The position numbers and the translations under genes were made by a program. Below are positions 14,420-21,147 of a DNA stretch of 52,301 bases, one piece after another. How positions within the stretch are numbered: the first letter of the stretch is position 1; each line of letters begins with the position of its first letter. The stretch lies in NCBI GenBank assembly GCA_023954815.1, contig JAGSHB010000020.1, positions 1 to 52,301 on the forward strand, written 5' to 3'. The notes below the pieces were generated by a model. It was given only the letters and a program-made list of their open reading frames with translations, did no database searches and was not told the origin of the DNA. The DNA is from Myxococcales bacterium. GTDB lineage: Bacteria; Myxococcota_A; UBA9042.

Positions 14420-15082
14420 ATGTTCCACACGATTGCTGAGTTCTTCGAAGAGGGCGGATGGGGTATGTGGCCCATCCTCGGGCACCTCATCTTCATTCTG
14501 GCGATCATGTTCGAGCGGATCTTCGTGCTGTACATCCGCTCCAGCGTGAAAAAAGAGGAGTTCATCAAACTCCTGCAGGTGCCGATCCTCAAAGGCGATC
14601 TCAATCGCGTCTTAAAGGTGTGCTCCACGTACCAGTACCCGCTCGCTCGCATCGTCCACTCGGGCGTGCTCAAGGTGAAGCGCTCGGACGAGGAAGTGCA
14701 GGCCGCAATGGACGAGGCTTACCTCCGCGAGATGCCGCACATCAAAAAGCGCATCGACTACCTCAACCTTCTCGGTAATACCGCGACCCTCGCTGGTCTC
14801 CTCGGTACCATTACCGGTCTGATCGCTACGTTCGGCGCCATCGGTCGCCCGGACGTTGACCCATCGCAGCGCTCCACGCTTCTCGCCCAGGGTATTTCCG
14901 AGGCGATGAACTGCACCGCGTTTGGTCTTGCCACAGGCATCATCGGCGTTCTCTCGTTCGCTGTCCTGTCTTCGAAGGCCACCGCCATCGAAGCTGACAT
15001 CAACGAGGGCACCGTGCGCGTGCTGAATCTGATCGTCGCCAATCGCAACAAGATGGGCGACATCAAAGAAGACGCTGCTTAA
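14420..15082 (+). CDS. MotA/TolQ/ExbB proton-channel family protein
   Basis: This 220-residue inner-membrane protein has three transmembrane segments (about 18-40, 128-155 and 170-197). The long cytoplasmic loop between the first two is typical of TolQ/ExbB. The second segment includes LLGNTATLAGLLGTITGLIATF, the family's best conserved block. Such proteins form the stator ring that carries protons around an ExbD/TolR dimer and energises envelope processes. The start at 14420 follows GGGAG; the frame upstream is open but not homologous. Two ExbD genes follow, an arrangement seen in Tol, Exb and the AglR-AglQ-AglS gliding motor. The gap to the first ExbD gene is unusually long and structured. 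Confidence 0.92.
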   Translation: MFHTIAEFFEEGGWGMWPILGHLIFILAIMFERIFVLYIRSSVKKEEFIKLLQVPILKGDLNRVLKVCSTYQYPLARIVHSGVLKVKRSDEEVQAAMDEAYLREMPHIKKRIDYLNLLGNTATLAGLLGTITGLIATFGAIGRPDVDPSQRSTLLAQGISEAMNCTAFGLATGIIGVLSFAVLSSKATAIEADINEGTVRVLNLIVANRNKMGDIKEDAA

Positions 15083-15094
15083 GTAGCCCCACGA

Positions 15095-15160
15095 CTCCCG
15101 ACCTCGGTTGGGAGTGCTCCCGACGTCAGTTGGGAGGCCTCCCTGCGTGAGCTGGGAGCG
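15095..15160 (+). repeat. Three tandem 22-nt hairpin units between tolQ-like and exbD-like genes
   Basis: CTCCC occurs at 15095, 15117 and 15139, and GGGAG at 15110, 15132 and 15154. That makes three contiguous 22-base units, each a 5-bp stem with a 10-base loop; unit 1 extends to 6 bp with A94-T115. Loops are GACCTCGGTT, GACGTCAGTT and TGCGTGAGCT. Arms are invariant while loops differ, which suggests selection on structure. No T tract follows, so these are not ordinary terminators. Confidence 0.85.
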
Positions 15161-15170
15161 TAATGGACCA

Positions 15171-15190
15171 GGTGACTGATCACAGTCACC
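15171..15190 (+). repeat. Perfect 8-bp hairpin with ATCA loop
   Basis: GGTGACTG (15171-15178) pairs with CAGTCACC (15183-15190) around a four-base loop. It is the fourth hairpin in the tolQ-exbD spacer, 11 bases after the tandem units. Confidence 0.85.
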
Positions 15191-15213
15191 ACACCTGCCG
15201 GTACGATTGCGGG

Positions 15214-15246
15214 CGGGGGCTGAGTAGCAGCCCTACTCAGCCCCCG
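15214..15246 (+). repeat. Perfect 14-bp hairpin upstream of the first ExbD gene
   Basis: Bases 15214-15227 pair perfectly with 15233-15246 around the loop CAGCC. The stem begins with CGGGGG and ends with CCCCCG, so it is very stable. It ends 33 bases before the ExbD ATG and lacks a T run. Likely roles are blocking exonuclease decay or lowering read-through into the ExbD genes. Confidence 0.9.
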
Positions 15247-15278
15247 ATTCGCAACGACACGGCACGCAGGAGAGCGCC

Positions 15279-15884
15279 ATGGGTGGTGCAGCCAGTGGTA
15301 AGGGCGGCGTAGCCGACGCAAGTCTCAACGTCGTCCCCTTTATCGACCTCCTTATTTGCCTCATCTGCTTCCTCGTCATTTCGGCGGCGTGGACCAGCTT
15401 GTCGCGAATCGACGTCGACCAGGCGCTCCCGAAAGCGAGCAAGACGCCGCCGAAGGACAAGCCAGAGAAGAAGGCGGAGATCAACGTCGCCATCACGCCC
15501 ACGGGCTACCTGGTGAATCTGTTCAACGCGGAAAATGCGGAGCTGGGTCAGCCCAAGCGCATCCCGACGACAGGCGACATGAAGATTTGCCAGGGTAAAA
15601 CCGGCAAAGACGGTGCCTGCCCCGGCGGTTACCAGACCTTCAAAAAGTACGACAAAGACAAGCTCAAAGAGACGCTCGCGGGCTTCATGAAAGAAGGCAA
15701 GCTCGCGGACAAGATCAAGGTCATGGTCGCCGCGCACGACAAGGTGCAGTACTTGCACCTGATCGGCACGTTGGACTCCGTGTTGCACTCCTGCGAGGAC
15801 GAGGCGGGTAAGTCCTGCCTGAAGAATCCGAGTGTGGGTGACATCAACCTGCTGCGCGCCAAAGGCTTCACTGCCTTCGACTAG
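15279..15884 (+). CDS. ExbD/TolR-type biopolymer transport protein (first copy)
   Basis: This 201-residue protein has one N-terminal transmembrane helix and a periplasmic domain. The helix starts LNVVPFIDLLICLICFLV, with Asp23 as the proton-carrying residue of ExbD/TolR. The periplasmic part is longer than usual for the family. It contains two cysteine pairs (KICQGKTGKDGAC and HSCEDEAGKSC) that could form disulfides. AGGAG precedes the ATG. It follows the TolQ-like gene after a 196-base hairpin-rich spacer and precedes a second ExbD by 55 bases. Confidence 0.9.
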   Translation: MGGAASGKGGVADASLNVVPFIDLLICLICFLVISAAWTSLSRIDVDQALPKASKTPPKDKPEKKAEINVAITPTGYLVNLFNAENAELGQPKRIPTTGDMKICQGKTGKDGACPGGYQTFKKYDKDKLKETLAGFMKEGKLADKIKVMVAAHDKVQYLHLIGTLDSVLHSCEDEAGKSCLKNPSVGDINLLRAKGFTAFD

Positions 15885-15910
15885 CCGACCGAACCTCGAC
15901 CGATCCCCTC

Positions 15911-15924
15911 CGCTCACGTGAGCG
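15911..15924. repeat. 14-nt perfect palindrome before the second ExbD gene
   Basis: CGCTCACGTGAGCG is self-complementary, centred on CACGTG, and lies 15 bases upstream of the ATG at 15940. It may be a protein-binding site or a hairpin near the ribosome binding site; the loop would be too tight for a full RNA stem. Confidence 0.5.
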
Positions 15925-15939
15925 ACACAGGACGTACGA

Positions 15940-16503
15940 ATGGCCATTCATAATCCCGGACCCCGCGCAGGCCATGGCATCGCTCTCAAGAGCGTCGCCA
16001 AGCATGTCACCGAGGGTGGCGCCAGCGGAATCTTCGCCACGCTCAACGTGGTCCCCATGATCGACATGTTCATCATCTTGGTGGTGTTCCTGGTCATGCA
16101 GTTCAGCTCCTCCGGTGAGCTGCTGCTGATGAACCCCAACATCTCGATGCCCAAGGCTTCCGCCTCGAAAGAGCTTGAGCGTGCACCGATGATCGCGCTG
16201 ACCCGCGCCGAGGGTAATAAACCCGGCTCCCTGCTCTTCGAGGGCAACATGGTGCTGAGCCTGTCGGACGTGAACGAGGTCAAGTACCCCTCGTGGGACA
16301 TCAAGCCGCTCGCCGAGACGCTGAAGAAGGCGTGGAAGCTCCAGCAGCGCAATCCCGACGTCAAGATTCGCAAGAATCGCAAGATCATCATCCAGGCTGA
16401 CCGTTCGGTGCCGTTTGGTGTCATCAAAATGGTGATGGCGACCTGCGGTCGTAACGAGTACCGCGAGCCCAACTTTGCGATTATGGTCGGCTCTGACGAC
16501 TAG
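15940..16503 (+). CDS. ExbD/TolR-type biopolymer transport protein (second copy)
   Basis: This 187-residue ExbD family member has a cytoplasmic N-terminal extension of about 33 residues before the transmembrane helix. LNVVPMIDMFIILVVFLVM follows with the key Asp at residue 42. The periplasmic domain ends near NRKIIIQADRSVPFGVIKMV, the typical TolR/ExbD fold signature. It differs enough from the first copy to suggest a heteromeric plug, as with AglQ/AglS. A strong terminator follows, so the three channel genes form one unit. Confidence 0.9.
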   Translation: MAIHNPGPRAGHGIALKSVAKHVTEGGASGIFATLNVVPMIDMFIILVVFLVMQFSSSGELLLMNPNISMPKASASKELERAPMIALTRAEGNKPGSLLFEGNMVLSLSDVNEVKYPSWDIKPLAETLKKAWKLQQRNPDVKIRKNRKIIIQADRSVPFGVIKMVMATCGRNEYREPNFAIMVGSDD

Positions 16504-16526
16504 ACCATCGTAGCTACAACGCATGG

Positions 16527-16564
16527 CGGCGTGTGACCCCAAGGTTACGCGCCGTTGTGTTTTT
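16527..16564 (+). terminator. Rho-independent terminator after the ExbD genes
   Basis: An 11-bp stem with two G-U pairs (16528-16538 with 16543-16553) has a four-base loop CCAA. C16527-G16554 extends it. A T-rich tail TTGTGTTTTT follows. Confidence 0.85.
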
Positions 16565-16689: not shown

Positions 16690-17694
16690 ATGAGCCAGTT
16701 GCTCTCTCTACGCATGACGACGCTAATGACACTGACGACCTTCGTGGTGGTTTCGCAGTCATTTTCAGCATCTGCAGCGCTCCCGAGCACGAAGGTGTAC
16801 CTCAATGGGGTGCCGGCGCCGGTCTATTTCAACGATGGTGACAGCTTTCGCGTGCTCGGCGGGGCGCTCAAGGGCACCAAGGCGCGGCTCGCGGGATTCA
16901 ATACGCTGGAAAGCTACGGAAACACGCATTCTTGGGGTGGATGGCACGCGAAAGAGCTCTATCACAACGCCAAGCAGGGAACCCTGAACGGTCGCAATGG
17001 TGTCTGGCATTGCACCTCGGACATGAAGCGCGACGGCTACGGCCGAATCTTGTGGTGGTGTCCTGATCTGGCGCTGAGTCAGGTGAGTAAGGGCCTGGCC
17101 CATGTGATGAGCGTGAAGGGCCCGGGAATTCCGATGCTGGTCAAGGCGCAGACGGAGGCCATCAAGAAGCGCGTCGGAATGTGGTCGCATGGTGTACCGA
17201 AGTACGTGGTGACGTCGCTGCACTCCGCTGACGAGCCTTGGTTCAAAGGGCTGCCGTACAATCGCATGGTCTCGACGGCGACGGGTGCGTCACGCAAGTG
17301 GCGCCATCGGACGCACTATCAGGAGTGCGACAAGGTTTGCTGGCATGACGTGACGTTGACGCCTGCGGCCCTGGCGGCGGCGATCGTCTCATTGAAGACT
17401 GAGGCGAAGTTGAAGTTGTACGTGGGGCGCTACACGGACAAGCAGCTGGGGGAGATTGCTACGGCCTACCGGCTCAACGCTGATCTCGGTCTGTTGCAGT
17501 CCAACCGCGAGATCAAAGAGCGCGATGCACGCTACACATGGCTGCGTGCCCAAGCGGAAGCATTTGATGAGGTGCTCAGTCGCATGGAAAAGGCCGGCAA
17601 GCTGGTTATCGCCACGAAAGTACGCGGCGCGTGCATGGTTCATGCTGGGTTCAAACGCCGCTACGGCGCAGGGTCGGCATCGTGTCTGCACTAG
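16690..17694 (+). CDS. Exported staphylococcal-nuclease-like (SNase/TNase) protein
   Basis: A signal peptide of about 30 residues ends near SFSASA. The next 150 residues match the SNase OB-fold. FNDGDSFRVLGG is the calcium-site strand, KARLAGFNTLESYG supplies the equivalents of Arg35 and Glu43, and KRDGYGRILWWC the equivalent of Arg87. KKRVGMW closes the fold. All catalytic residues I can place are present, so an active secreted or periplasmic nuclease is likely. The C-terminal 140 residues are extra, helical and unassigned, with a few cysteines (ECDKVCWHD). The ATG follows GGAGG. It is 35 bases upstream of the DND-repeat lipoprotein and likely co-transcribed with it. Confidence 0.8.
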   Translation: MSQLLSLRMTTLMTLTTFVVVSQSFSASAALPSTKVYLNGVPAPVYFNDGDSFRVLGGALKGTKARLAGFNTLESYGNTHSWGGWHAKELYHNAKQGTLNGRNGVWHCTSDMKRDGYGRILWWCPDLALSQVSKGLAHVMSVKGPGIPMLVKAQTEAIKKRVGMWSHGVPKYVVTSLHSADEPWFKGLPYNRMVSTATGASRKWRHRTHYQECDKVCWHDVTLTPAALAAAIVSLKTEAKLKLYVGRYTDKQLGEIATAYRLNADLGLLQSNREIKERDARYTWLRAQAEAFDEVLSRMEKAGKLVIATKVRGACMVHAGFKRRYGAGSASCLH

Positions 17695-17729
17695 ATCCAC
17701 AGCAAAACACCGATCACGAGGGAACAACG

Positions 17730-19166
17730 ATGCAGCATCAGGTGGGTCGCTTTCCGATGCGCATGCTCTTTGCAGCCACATGGGTTCTGCTCGTGGCATT
17801 GTGGGGCTGCAATATCGGACCGCTGAAGTTTACCAAGCCCGATCGTCCGGTGATGGGATATGAGGTCGGTGATCAGAACTGTGAAGACGGAATCGACAAC
17901 GACCAGGATGGGATGATCGACTGTGAAGATCCCGACTGCCTATACGAGTCGGGCCACTGTGGCGAAGTCGTCTCCCAGATTCCCACGTGGCAGCCTGAGA
18001 ACTCCTACGCCCTGTGTTCCGATCAGATGGACAACGACGACGACGGGCAATTCGACTGCGGCGATCGCAAATGCCAGACCATCGCCGAGCTTTGCTGCAG
18101 CCGCGAGTTCACCAATGACACCTGCGAACACGGCCTCGACAACGACGCCAACGGCTATACAGACTGCGAAGATTTCGGCTGTCGGAACGGCATCTTTGTG
18201 ACCGTCTGCGTCGAAAATACGGCCGCGTTGTGTGCCAATGGCAAGGACGACGACGGCGACGGATTCACGGACTGCAAGGACTCCAACTGCGCCAAAGCGA
18301 GCAACTGCACAGGCGGCGGCGCGCCGCCCACTGGCGAGTCTGGGCCTGAAAATACACTGAAAAACTGCACAGACGGCTTTGACAATGACGACAACGGTTA
18401 CACCGACTGCGGAGATTTCTCCTGCAGCAAGTCGAGTGACCCGGCGATTTTGAAGGCCTGCGAAAATGCAAAGGAAGGATCGCTGGAAAGCTGCAAGGAC
18501 GGAAAGGACAACGACAGCAACGGCTACACCGATTGCAACGACAACGCGTGCAGCCTGTCTGAAGATGTCGCTGTCTTTGATTACTGTGTATCCATTGGAG
18601 AAAACACGGTCAAAAAGTGCGGCGATGGCATAGACAACGACGGAAACGGCTACACCGACTGCGATGACAACAACTGCAGTAAGTCGAGCGATCTAGATAT
18701 CTACGAGTATTGTCAGTCGATCGCCGAGGCGTCGGAGGAGCAGTGCACCAACGGCTCCGACGACGACAATGACGGCTACAGCGATTGCAATGACAACTCC
18801 TGTCGGAACTCGCTCCTGAAGTACACCAAGGACGGACCCAACGGGAAGATCGCCACGGTGAAGGACTACTGCGCCTCCCTCGCTGAGAATACGTGGGACA
18901 AGTGCAAAGACGGTATCGACAACGATGACAACGGGTACGCGGACTGCAACGACCGTTCTTGCCGGGGGGCAGATGCCTGGGATGGCAAGAGACATCCGTG
19001 CCAAGAGAGTTTTTCGCCCACAGACAGTCCGGCCGAGGTGGATGCCGCCTGCAGCGACAAGATCGACAATGACGGTGATGGTTTTACCGATTGCGACGAC
19101 TGGGACTGCGCTTGGAATCCGAAGGGCACGGTCTGCAACACAGGCAAACCGAAAGTTTGCCAGTAG
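17730..19166 (+). CDS. Lipoprotein with ten acidic DND-Cys repeats
   Basis: I start at ATG 17730 (GAGGGA upstream), giving 478 residues. The signal peptide ends VALWGC, so Cys27 is the likely lipidation site. From residue 51 to about 466 there are ten copies of CxDGxDNDxxGxxDCxDxxC, spaced irregularly at 30-60 residues. Each has three cysteines and an Asp-rich loop like a thrombospondin type 3 or EF-hand-like calcium loop. Disulfide and calcium binding are inferred. The spacers between repeats 5 and 9 carry related sequences (ENTLKNC, ENTVKKC, ENTWDKC), showing internal duplication. No enzymatic domain is seen. The next gene encodes an outer-membrane barrel with three copies of the same repeat. 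Confidence 0.85.
   Translation: MQHQVGRFPMRMLFAATWVLLVALWGCNIGPLKFTKPDRPVMGYEVGDQNCEDGIDNDQDGMIDCEDPDCLYESGHCGEVVSQIPTWQPENSYALCSDQMDNDDDGQFDCGDRKCQTIAELCCSREFTNDTCEHGLDNDANGYTDCEDFGCRNGIFVTVCVENTAALCANGKDDDGDGFTDCKDSNCAKASNCTGGGAPPTGESGPENTLKNCTDGFDNDDNGYTDCGDFSCSKSSDPAILKACENAKEGSLESCKDGKDNDSNGYTDCNDNACSLSEDVAVFDYCVSIGENTVKKCGDGIDNDGNGYTDCDDNNCSKSSDLDIYEYCQSIAEASEEQCTNGSDDDNDGYSDCNDNSCRNSLLKYTKDGPNGKIATVKDYCASLAENTWDKCKDGIDNDDNGYADCNDRSCRGADAWDGKRHPCQESFSPTDSPAEVDAACSDKIDNDGDGFTDCDDWDCAWNPKGTVCNTGKPKVCQ
17880..19109 (+). repeat. Ten protein-coding DND-Cys repeats
   Basis: Each unit is about 60 bases coding CxDGxDNDxxGxxDCxDxxC, separated by variable spacers. Units 3 and 5-9 are closest, sharing NGYTDC or variants. 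The DNA copies have diverged at third positions, so the array is old rather than a recent slippage product. Confidence 0.85.
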
Positions 19167-19218
19167 GCGGCGAGACGAACGCGACGTGTTGGCTCAGTGC
19201 CAATCAAGGGGAGGGAAG

Positions 19219-21147
19219 ATGAACCGCACGATGGCCGTATTGGCTCTGGTTCTGATGGTGCCAAGCGTGACGCTAGCGGCACCGCCGCGGCCTGAAAGTT
19301 CTGCTGCGAAGGCAGACCAGGCGAAGACACCTGTGGTCGGGAAGGCTGAGGCCAAGAAGGCGCCAGCAGCCGAAAAGACAGCTGACAAAGCGAAAGAGGC
19401 GGCCGCGGCAGCAGCGAAGGCCGCGGCAGCAGCGAAGGCCCCGGCAGCACAGTCCCCCGGCGCTTCCAAGGCTGGGGAGTCTGTGAAGGCCGCGGCGAAG
19501 CCAGCAGCTACGGCTCCCGCCGCAAAAGCTCCCGCCGCAACGGCACCCGCGGCTACCGCTCCGCCCACAGCCCCTGCAGCGAAACCGGCAGCAGCTGGCG
19601 CCCCTGAGACAGCAGCACCAGCGGCCAAGGCGGGCAACCCCAAGCCGGCGCCGGCCGTTGGCGCTCAGGGAAAGGAAACCCGTTGCACCGACGGCAAAGA
19701 CGACGACAACGACTCCATGACCGACTGCGCGGACGCCGACTGTTTCAAGTCGCATCCGGCTTGCAAGACCGGCGGCGGTTTGGAGAACTCCAACGCGCGC
19801 TGCAGTGATTGGGTCGACAATGATGGCAACGGCGCGGTGGATTGCGATGACCGTGGCTGCGAGGGGCCTGGCATCACCGTGTGCAAGGGCTCCTGGAAAG
19901 GCTCGCTCGATAGCGGCGGCGGCGCAGGAAGTCGCGGCGCGCCCGAAGAGGACGTGCCGGAGCTCGGCAAAGGCATGGCCGTCGAAGATTTGCTCGGCAA
20001 GGGCAGTGACAAGGACGGCGAGCGTAACGACCAGCTCTGTTCCGACGGCGTCGACAACGACAAGGACGGCCGTACGGACTGCGCTGACTTCGGTTGTCGC
20101 TTTGACCCCAGTGTGACGGTCTGTCGCGGCAACGCTGGTATGCGGTTTTCGGTCGTGGCCGGTATCCGGCACAGCTACAACATCAAGAACTACCGTGATG
20201 GCGACGAGACCATGGACACGCGCTTTTCGCGCATTCAGCTGCGCTCGTTCGGTCCGATGCCGCTCATCCAAAACAGCTTCTACCTGCTCAGTATGCGGGC
20301 CGAGAAGACCCCGCGGCTGACGTTTGCCATGTTCCAGATGCCCATCAGCAACCACGGTCACTACGTCAACATCAACAGCGGCGGCGGCGGTCTATCCCCA
20401 TCTCTGATTCTGTCCGCTGCCAAACAGCTGCTGCTTGAGCCGGCCTACTACGTGTACAACGCGTTTGAACAGGGCAATGGCGCGTCCGCTGAGGTCGGCG
20501 GTCCCATCGGCGACAGCGGCAAATTGAGCTTCCGCATCTTCGCCGCCGGCGGGTCGGGTCGCTTCACGGGTAACGTCGGTGGCCGCTACTTCACCTACGG
20601 TAATACCAACTACACATACGCCGTCGGTGGCCAGCTCGGCGTCAACGCCATCGGTCACTACAGCCGGTTTGACAGCCCCTTCCTCTACACGCCGGTGCCG
20701 ACGACCTTGGCCTTCCGCGTGGGTGTGAAATACGACCAACGCGCCCAGGAGAAGTACCCCGCGCTGAACGTCTACTCGGTCTTTCGGCACAATCGTCTCG
20801 TGATCCTGGCTGAGAGCTACACAAAGAAAGAGCTCGCCTTCGATTCGATCCAGACGGCCTACGTCGCGCAGATTGGTTTCTTGGCCATCCCGAAGCGCTT
20901 GCTGCTCGCAGCTGACTATGGTGCCTATGTCGCTGGCGAGATGAAGAACGCGCCGGACAAACTGGAGACCGATCTGAAGAAGCAGCTGGACGAAGTGCAG
21001 TGGCGCGCGGCGGCTCACTTCTTCTTCTACAGAAATATCGGCATCTTGTCGGTTCTGTACAAGGACAGGAAGATCCAGAACGCCAAGGCGGGGCTTGAGG
21101 CCAATCGCGAGCAACGTTTCAGCCTTGAGGCCCAGTACCGTTTCTAG
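19219..21147 (+). CDS. Outer-membrane beta-barrel protein with Ala/Pro/Lys linker and three DND-Cys repeats
   Basis: The start is ATG 19219 behind GAGGG, giving 642 residues. Residues 1-20 are a signal peptide (cleavage after TLA). Residues 23-150 are a low-complexity Ala/Lys/Pro linker. Residues 156-293 hold three repeats of CxDGxDNDxxGxxDCxDxxC type, with a Gly/Ser-rich insert before the third. Residues 300-642 have alternating hydrophobic and aromatic strands and end LEAQYRF, the C-terminal Phe of outer-membrane barrels. The barrel is probably embedded in the outer membrane, with the linker and repeats periplasmic; the linker could cross or bind peptidoglycan (inference). It is 52 bases after the repeat lipoprotein and probably in one operon with it. 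Confidence 0.82.
   Translation: MNRTMAVLALVLMVPSVTLAAPPRPESSAAKADQAKTPVVGKAEAKKAPAAEKTADKAKEAAAAAAKAAAAAKAPAAQSPGASKAGESVKAAAKPAATAPAAKAPAATAPAATAPPTAPAAKPAAAGAPETAAPAAKAGNPKPAPAVGAQGKETRCTDGKDDDNDSMTDCADADCFKSHPACKTGGGLENSNARCSDWVDNDGNGAVDCDDRGCEGPGITVCKGSWKGSLDSGGGAGSRGAPEEDVPELGKGMAVEDLLGKGSDKDGERNDQLCSDGVDNDKDGRTDCADFGCRFDPSVTVCRGNAGMRFSVVAGIRHSYNIKNYRDGDETMDTRFSRIQLRSFGPMPLIQNSFYLLSMRAEKTPRLTFAMFQMPISNHGHYVNINSGGGGLSPSLILSAAKQLLLEPAYYVYNAFEQGNGASAEVGGPIGDSGKLSFRIFAAGGSGRFTGNVGGRYFTYGNTNYTYAVGGQLGVNAIGHYSRFDSPFLYTPVPTTLAFRVGVKYDQRAQEKYPALNVYSVFRHNRLVILAESYTKKELAFDSIQTAYVAQIGFLAIPKRLLLAADYGAYVAGEMKNAPDKLETDLKKQLDEVQWRAAAHFFFYRNIGILSVLYKDRKIQNAKAGLEANREQRFSLEAQYRF
19684..20097 (+). repeat. 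Three further DND-Cys repeats
   Basis: The units begin at the Cys codons near 19684 and 19801 and end at 20097; the third follows a Gly-rich insert. They match the ten units in the preceding lipoprotein, linking the two gene products. Confidence 0.8.

Follow-up and report, generated by a model that had tools for sequence, protein, structure and literature searches.

The window, a 52,301-nt stretch of DNA from an uncultured Myxococcales bacterium (Myxococcota; contig JAGSHB010000020.1), carries on its + strand a tolQ-type channel gene (14420–15082; 220 aa, MotA_ExbB family, Pfam PF01618, E = 8e-24) and two genes of the ExbD family, exbD1 (15279–15884; 201 aa, Pfam PF02472, E = 1e-12) and exbD2 (15940–16503; 187 aa, Pfam PF02472, E = 2e-14). 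Gene order, strand and conservation suggest that the three form a single operon, of which tolQ would be the first gene. A long hairpin followed by TTTTT (16521–16564, + strand; fold of −29.9 kcal/mol) is likely the intrinsic terminator of this operon. The 196-nt tolQ–exbD1 spacer (15083–15278) is strongly folded (z = −7.7), whereas the 55-nt exbD1–exbD2 spacer (15885–15939), which served as internal control, is unstructured (best stem p = 0.54, z = −0.9). MotA/ExbB/TolQ-type motors have a 5:2 stoichiometry (PMC9389320), and the tolQ–exbD1 boundary is the place where the channel subunit (five copies) meets the axle subunit (two copies); an earlier note on this DNA had likewise given a ratio of about 5:2.

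In the other ExbB/ExbD pairs of the source genome, the two genes overlap or lie just 11 or 31 nt apart, with no hairpin at the junction; the role of the spacer element would therefore be particular to the tolQ–exbD1–exbD2 operon. A second, orphan copy of exbD1, 51–60% identical to the operon copy and with neither tolQ nor exbD2 adjacent, occurs in six of the 22 family species, namely in the source genome (L135:918-1508, contig C259) and in five relatives (L141–L145). These paralogues were considered as a test of the spacer and dropped because they are orphans without tolQ. Downstream of exbD2, a gene with a nuclease-like stretch (16690–17694; VYFNDGDSFRVLGG...KARLAGFNTLESYG; no Pfam match), found 3′ of exbD2 in at least two relatives as well (L037, L054), is possibly linked functionally to the motor. 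Also adjoining the operon, positions 17631–19166 and 18925–21147 encode proteins with many DxDxDG-type calcium-binding-like repeats of the pattern CxDGxDNDxDGxxDCxDxxC.

Hairpins in the tolQ–exbD1 spacer

All five hairpins described in the earlier note are present on the + strand of the spacer, and none is followed by a T tract. Three contiguous 22-nt units (15095–15160; CTCCCGACCTCGGTTGGGAGTG, CTCCCGACGTCAGTTGGGAGGC, CTCCCTGCGTGAGCTGGGAGCG) precede an 8-bp perfect hairpin (15171–15190; loop ATCA, −11.9 kcal/mol) and a 14-bp perfect hairpin (15214–15246; loop CAGCC, −28.3 kcal/mol). In the fold of 15196–15268, the latter merges with an outer stem, TGCCG...CGGCA (15196–15264), to give a single long hairpin (−50.1 kcal/mol) whose foot lies 3 nt short of the exbD1 Shine-Dalgarno site (AGGAG, 15268–15272); congeners show similar outer pairing.

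Each 22-nt unit folds by itself into an eight-position stem with a 4-nt loop: unit 1 (15095–15116) with loop CTCG and −11.4 kcal/mol, unit 2 (15117–15138) with loop GTCA and −12.7 kcal/mol, and unit 3 (15139–15160) with loop GTGA, one U-U mismatch and −10.8 kcal/mol. The units had been called exact, which holds for their length and phase (spacing of 22 and 22) but not for their sequence: units 2 and 3 share 82% and 68% identity with unit 1, respectively. The CTCCC/GGGAG arms occur in all three, and the stem comprises eight positions rather than five: in units 1 and 2, the five arm pairs are extended by G-U, A-U and C-G; both partners of the A-U pair are changed in unit 3, to G-C, and the G-U pair gives way to the U-U mismatch. 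Conserved arms with variable loops had been read as a sign of selection for structure. The comparison of units 1 and 2 agrees, with all four differences in the loop or linker (hypergeometric p = 0.002), but that of units 2 and 3, with three of six differences located there, is not significant (p = 0.18), so that the pattern is weak evidence.

The array and the fold of the spacer exceed chance. CTCCC-N10-GGGAG is found three times in the window, always in the spacer, against 0.05 expected occurrences; none of 200 shuffles gave even two such tandem units, and no adjacent units of this kind were found elsewhere in the 6.4-Mb source genome. The spacer, whose fold z-score is −7.7 for the + strand and −6.3 for the − strand, has the lowest fold z among 94 intergenic gaps of the source genome, drawn from a sample of its contigs. 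An Rfam 15 search returned nothing at gathering score, with a lone sub-threshold chance match (E = 0.49).

The source genome contains at least 41 matches to a dispersed palindromic repeat that is about 110 nt long, holds several strong hairpins and sometimes occurs in tandem; L124:12084-12417 (contig C30, between sucB/odhB and lpdA) and L140:886-1108 are among its sites, and it is absent from the window. The tolQ–exbD1 spacers are single-copy, whereas REP/BIME elements are defined by many copies, and a dispersed repeat was rejected on this ground as the identity of the window's spacer. The sucB–lpdA spacer of the source genome (z = −7.8) had been a candidate for a second hairpin at a stoichiometry step, and was dropped because it corresponds to the 110-nt repeat.

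Conservation of structure at the channel–rod boundary

The family set comprises the window's species and 21 relatives. The order tolQ–exbD1–exbD2 is kept in all 22 species, and the TolQ orthologues of the relatives are 84–99% identical, yet the spacers align only within genera. All 21 relatives have orthologous structured spacers; spacer length is 134–598 nt across the 22 species (0–161 nt in eight species from other families of the class), and every family spacer tested has a z of about −1.8 or lower. One member, L049 (CAMDBH010000001.1), is titled Klebsiella pneumoniae although its contig carries the Myxococcota tolQ operon of the family (TolQ 87% identical), and is probably a mislabelled metagenome bin.

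Within the genus of the window, the 14-bp, terminal hairpin (GGGGCTGAG...CTCAGCCCC) is homologous and shows compensatory changes. Read by eye across four congeneric species, one of its pairs runs T-A, T-A, C-G and G-C, and another G-C, G-C, U-G and G-C. In a second genus, a 15-bp hairpin keeps an identical core, and one of its pairs runs C-G/U-G/U-A. These compensatory pairs were read from pair tables of four and five alignable sequences per genus, too few for formal covariation statistics; because the spacers cannot be aligned outside a genus, the covariation sought by the earlier note could be scored at only a few pairs. At the position of the 8-bp hairpin, three congeners carry hairpins of quite different sequence.

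The 22-nt array was found in the window's species only. Tandem arrays of unrelated units are present in eight of the 22 family spacers, at 1.1 per kb compared with 0.32 per kb in 159 control gaps. The spacers of L042, L050, L052, L054 and L056 contain independent arrays of 12- to 21-nt units in up to 6.8 copies, and some of these units hold inverted repeats. Among the sequences compared, the conserved trait is one or more strong hairpins at the tolQ/exbD1 boundary, not the 22-nt array.

To place these values in context, we compared the family spacers, with a median MFE z of −3.7, with 96 co-directional control gaps of 60–600 nt from the same genomes, which had a median of −0.12; some noise enters because simple scripts supplied the gene calls for the control gaps and chose the start codons. 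The strongest control comes from the exbD1–exbD2 gap of the same operon. A significant hairpin was found in the tolQ–exbD1 spacer of 14 of 21 family members and 15 of 26 other Myxococcota, but in the exbD1–exbD2 spacer of only one and two, respectively (3/47 in total). Across the phylum, 75 operons carrying exbD1 as well as exbD2 were sampled, some of them shared with the earlier set; a significant hairpin was present in 27 of their 45 tolQ–exbD1 spacers of at least 60 nt (median z = −2.7), and most exbD1–exbD2 spacers were shorter than 25 nt. The earlier note would have been contradicted by stems lacking conservation in relatives; instead, structure recurs across the family and widely in the phylum, kept at this exact boundary and absent at the next, although the array itself is species-specific. 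The structured spacer is widespread in the phylum, not universal: in one Myxococcota lineage the tolQ–exbD1 spacer measures 0–26 nt and has no hairpin. Together with the tight, hairpin-free ExbB/ExbD junctions, this lineage indicates that motors of this type can do without the element. The position of the hairpin varies from adjoining tolQ to adjoining exbD1, so protection of either side would be possible.

A transcript-level reading and its alternatives

We compared mismatch types in the stems, read on the mRNA strand. Across all family stems scoring 18 or more, G-U and A-C were balanced (25:25) and uninformative. When the comparison was restricted to the single best significant hairpin of each spacer, a choice made after seeing this result, the pooled counts were 34 G-U against 12 A-C (binomial p of about 0.0008, with no correction for relatedness or for the post-hoc choice). 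The new phylum hairpins pointed in the same direction (11:6). This tolerance of G-U over A-C makes RNA the likely selected molecule and suggests that selection acts on the transcript.

A T tract follows the hairpin in none of 21 family spacers, one of 19 spacers from other Myxococcota and none of 30 from the phylum sample. An intrinsic terminator consists of a hairpin directly followed by a T tract, as at the end of the operon (hairpin plus TTTTT); the spacer hairpins lack the tract and are therefore not standard terminators. Masking of the ribosome site as a means of lowering exbD1 translation is not supported. The minimum-energy fold pairs unit 3 with the Shine-Dalgarno site, but in the ensemble this site is about 67% open (accessibility of 0.67, compared with 0.53 with shuffled spacers). 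In most family members the native spacer leaves it at least as accessible as shuffled versions do, and masking shows no family trend, exceptions such as L049 aside.

We propose, with a probability of roughly one half, that the spacer is an intercistronic mRNA stem-loop element of the selective RNA processing and stabilisation (SRPS) type that favours the tolQ over the exbD message, in keeping with the 5:2 motor. Cleavage of the polycistronic message would fall in unpaired stretches of the spacer, or else a break within exbD would be followed by trimming towards the spacer, and the stem-loops would block 3′-to-5′ exonucleases, so that the tolQ part would outlive the exbD part. The longer-lived tolQ part would yield channel protein in excess over both rod proteins, which would themselves stay near 1:1 because the gap between exbD1 and exbD2 is short and unstructured. 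The sequences themselves show the hairpins, which hold their position while their sequence turns over, the missing T tracts and the bias towards the mRNA strand; co-transcription, cleavage, stabilisation and the resulting ratio are steps that the SRPS reading supposes.

A leaky internal terminator would have the same outcome through a different step: polymerase would partly stop at the hairpins, either with no U tract or through Rho acting in the spacer, leaving fewer exbD1 transcripts. In clostridia, ABC-transporter ratios are set by internal terminators that combine low U content with long GC-rich stems (PMC9045158), and spacers that grow to as much as 598 nt would leave room for Rho. However, T tracts are lacking, the stem-loop without a U-rich tail that was tested in the clostridial work failed to terminate, and the source genome does have hairpin-plus-T-tract terminators, for instance at the end of the tolQ operon; we regard partial termination as unlikely, though worth keeping in view. 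More doubtful is translational insulation, in which the hairpins would stop ribosomes that have completed tolQ from sliding to, or re-initiating at, exbD1, so that starts there would be independent and rarer at an unmasked site. The short exbD1–exbD2 spacers (often 6–24 nt in the phylum sample) permit coupling, the tolQ–exbD1 spacers are long and folded, and the exbD1 Shine-Dalgarno site is in most family members no less open than with shuffled spacers, all of which would fit; but a long unfolded spacer would uncouple the genes equally well, and the strong stems and the growth of hairpin arrays would be left unexplained.

The inverted repeats could also act in the DNA, as operators or as the promoter region of a separate exbD1–exbD2 transcript. 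Their constant phase of 22 nt, about two helical turns, resembles tandem operators, and the − strand folds well too (z = −6.3). Such a role is nevertheless very improbable in our estimation: no sigma-70-like promoter was found in the spacer (a weak test), the genera share no motif, stems of 14–17 bp that change in sequence and have tight loops suit RNA better than protein sites, and G-U exceeds A-C. We give least credence to an absence of function, with a spacer that merely tolerates palindromes and tandem duplications born of replication slippage. The frequency of arrays of unrelated units (8/22 spacers; 1.1 versus 0.32 per kb), the species-specific array of the window and the dispersed palindromic repeat of the source genome (at least 41 matches) would suit this explanation. 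Against it, the tolQ–exbD1 spacers are single-copy, their structure is enriched relative to other gaps of the same genomes and to the exbD1–exbD2 gap, and both the compensatory changes and the excess of G-U suggest that the structure is maintained.

Related systems and implications for the motor

Intercistronic hairpins that stabilise the upstream message of an excess product include the REP of the E. coli malE–malF spacer and the hairpin of the Rhodobacter puf operon. REP elements are dispersed repeats, whereas the tolQ–exbD1 spacer is single-copy; puf encodes a membrane complex of another phylum, for which processing was measured.

The SRPS reading draws most directly on Clostridium cellulolyticum, in which SRPS stem-loops, mostly free of U runs, follow the abundant cistron of protein-complex operons (PMC4423207). 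The tolQ–exbD1 spacer likewise has a stable stem-loop between the cistrons of one putative heteromultimer operon and no U run after it, and this match of a U-tract-free structure after the first gene of an excess-product operon favours the SRPS assignment. The cip-cel cellulosome operon has such stable stem-loops after its excess cistron; its processing sites and transcript ratios have been determined experimentally, whereas the tolQ spacer is known from sequence alone, belongs to another phylum and complex, and can bear tandem hairpin arrays (PMC4423207). The internal terminators of clostridial ABC importers also have long, GC-rich, low-U stems after a highly needed first gene, but required U-rich tails for activity, unlike the tolQ spacers, which have no T tracts (PMC9045158). 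In E. coli operons with differential decay, conserved RNA structures similarly shield one segment of a polycistronic message, although these lie mostly within coding regions and the tolQ hairpins lie between genes (PMC5927463).

The spacer is thus a real, well-conserved structural feature, most likely serving regulation of a known sort; new here are its position at this boundary and its conservation by structure instead of sequence. The species-specific 22-nt array is eye-catching, but it is the position-specific, sequence-independent conservation that matters. How 5:2 motors obtain their subunit ratios from one operon is little addressed in the literature searched, and the sequence described here suggests where and how this could occur. 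The operon provides a natural internal control, being structured at the channel/rod boundary but plain where the two rod genes meet. Cultured carriers suited to testing exist, such as Polyangium and Sorangium strains (loci L063, L067, L070, L077, L078 and L081).

More tentatively, and with rather low confidence, we consider that selection may keep any strong hairpin at the tolQ/exbD1 boundary across the phylum, by structure and not by sequence, with constant sequence turnover and repeated growth of hairpin arrays, so as to set a channel:rod1:rod2 ratio near 5:1:1; if true, such a ratio would fit a motor with an ExbD1–ExbD2 heterodimer axle. The tolQ operon bears on the question, raised in PMC9389320, of whether the two ExbD/TolR-type subunits of Myxococcus AglRQS motors, to which orthology is putative, form hetero- or homodimers.
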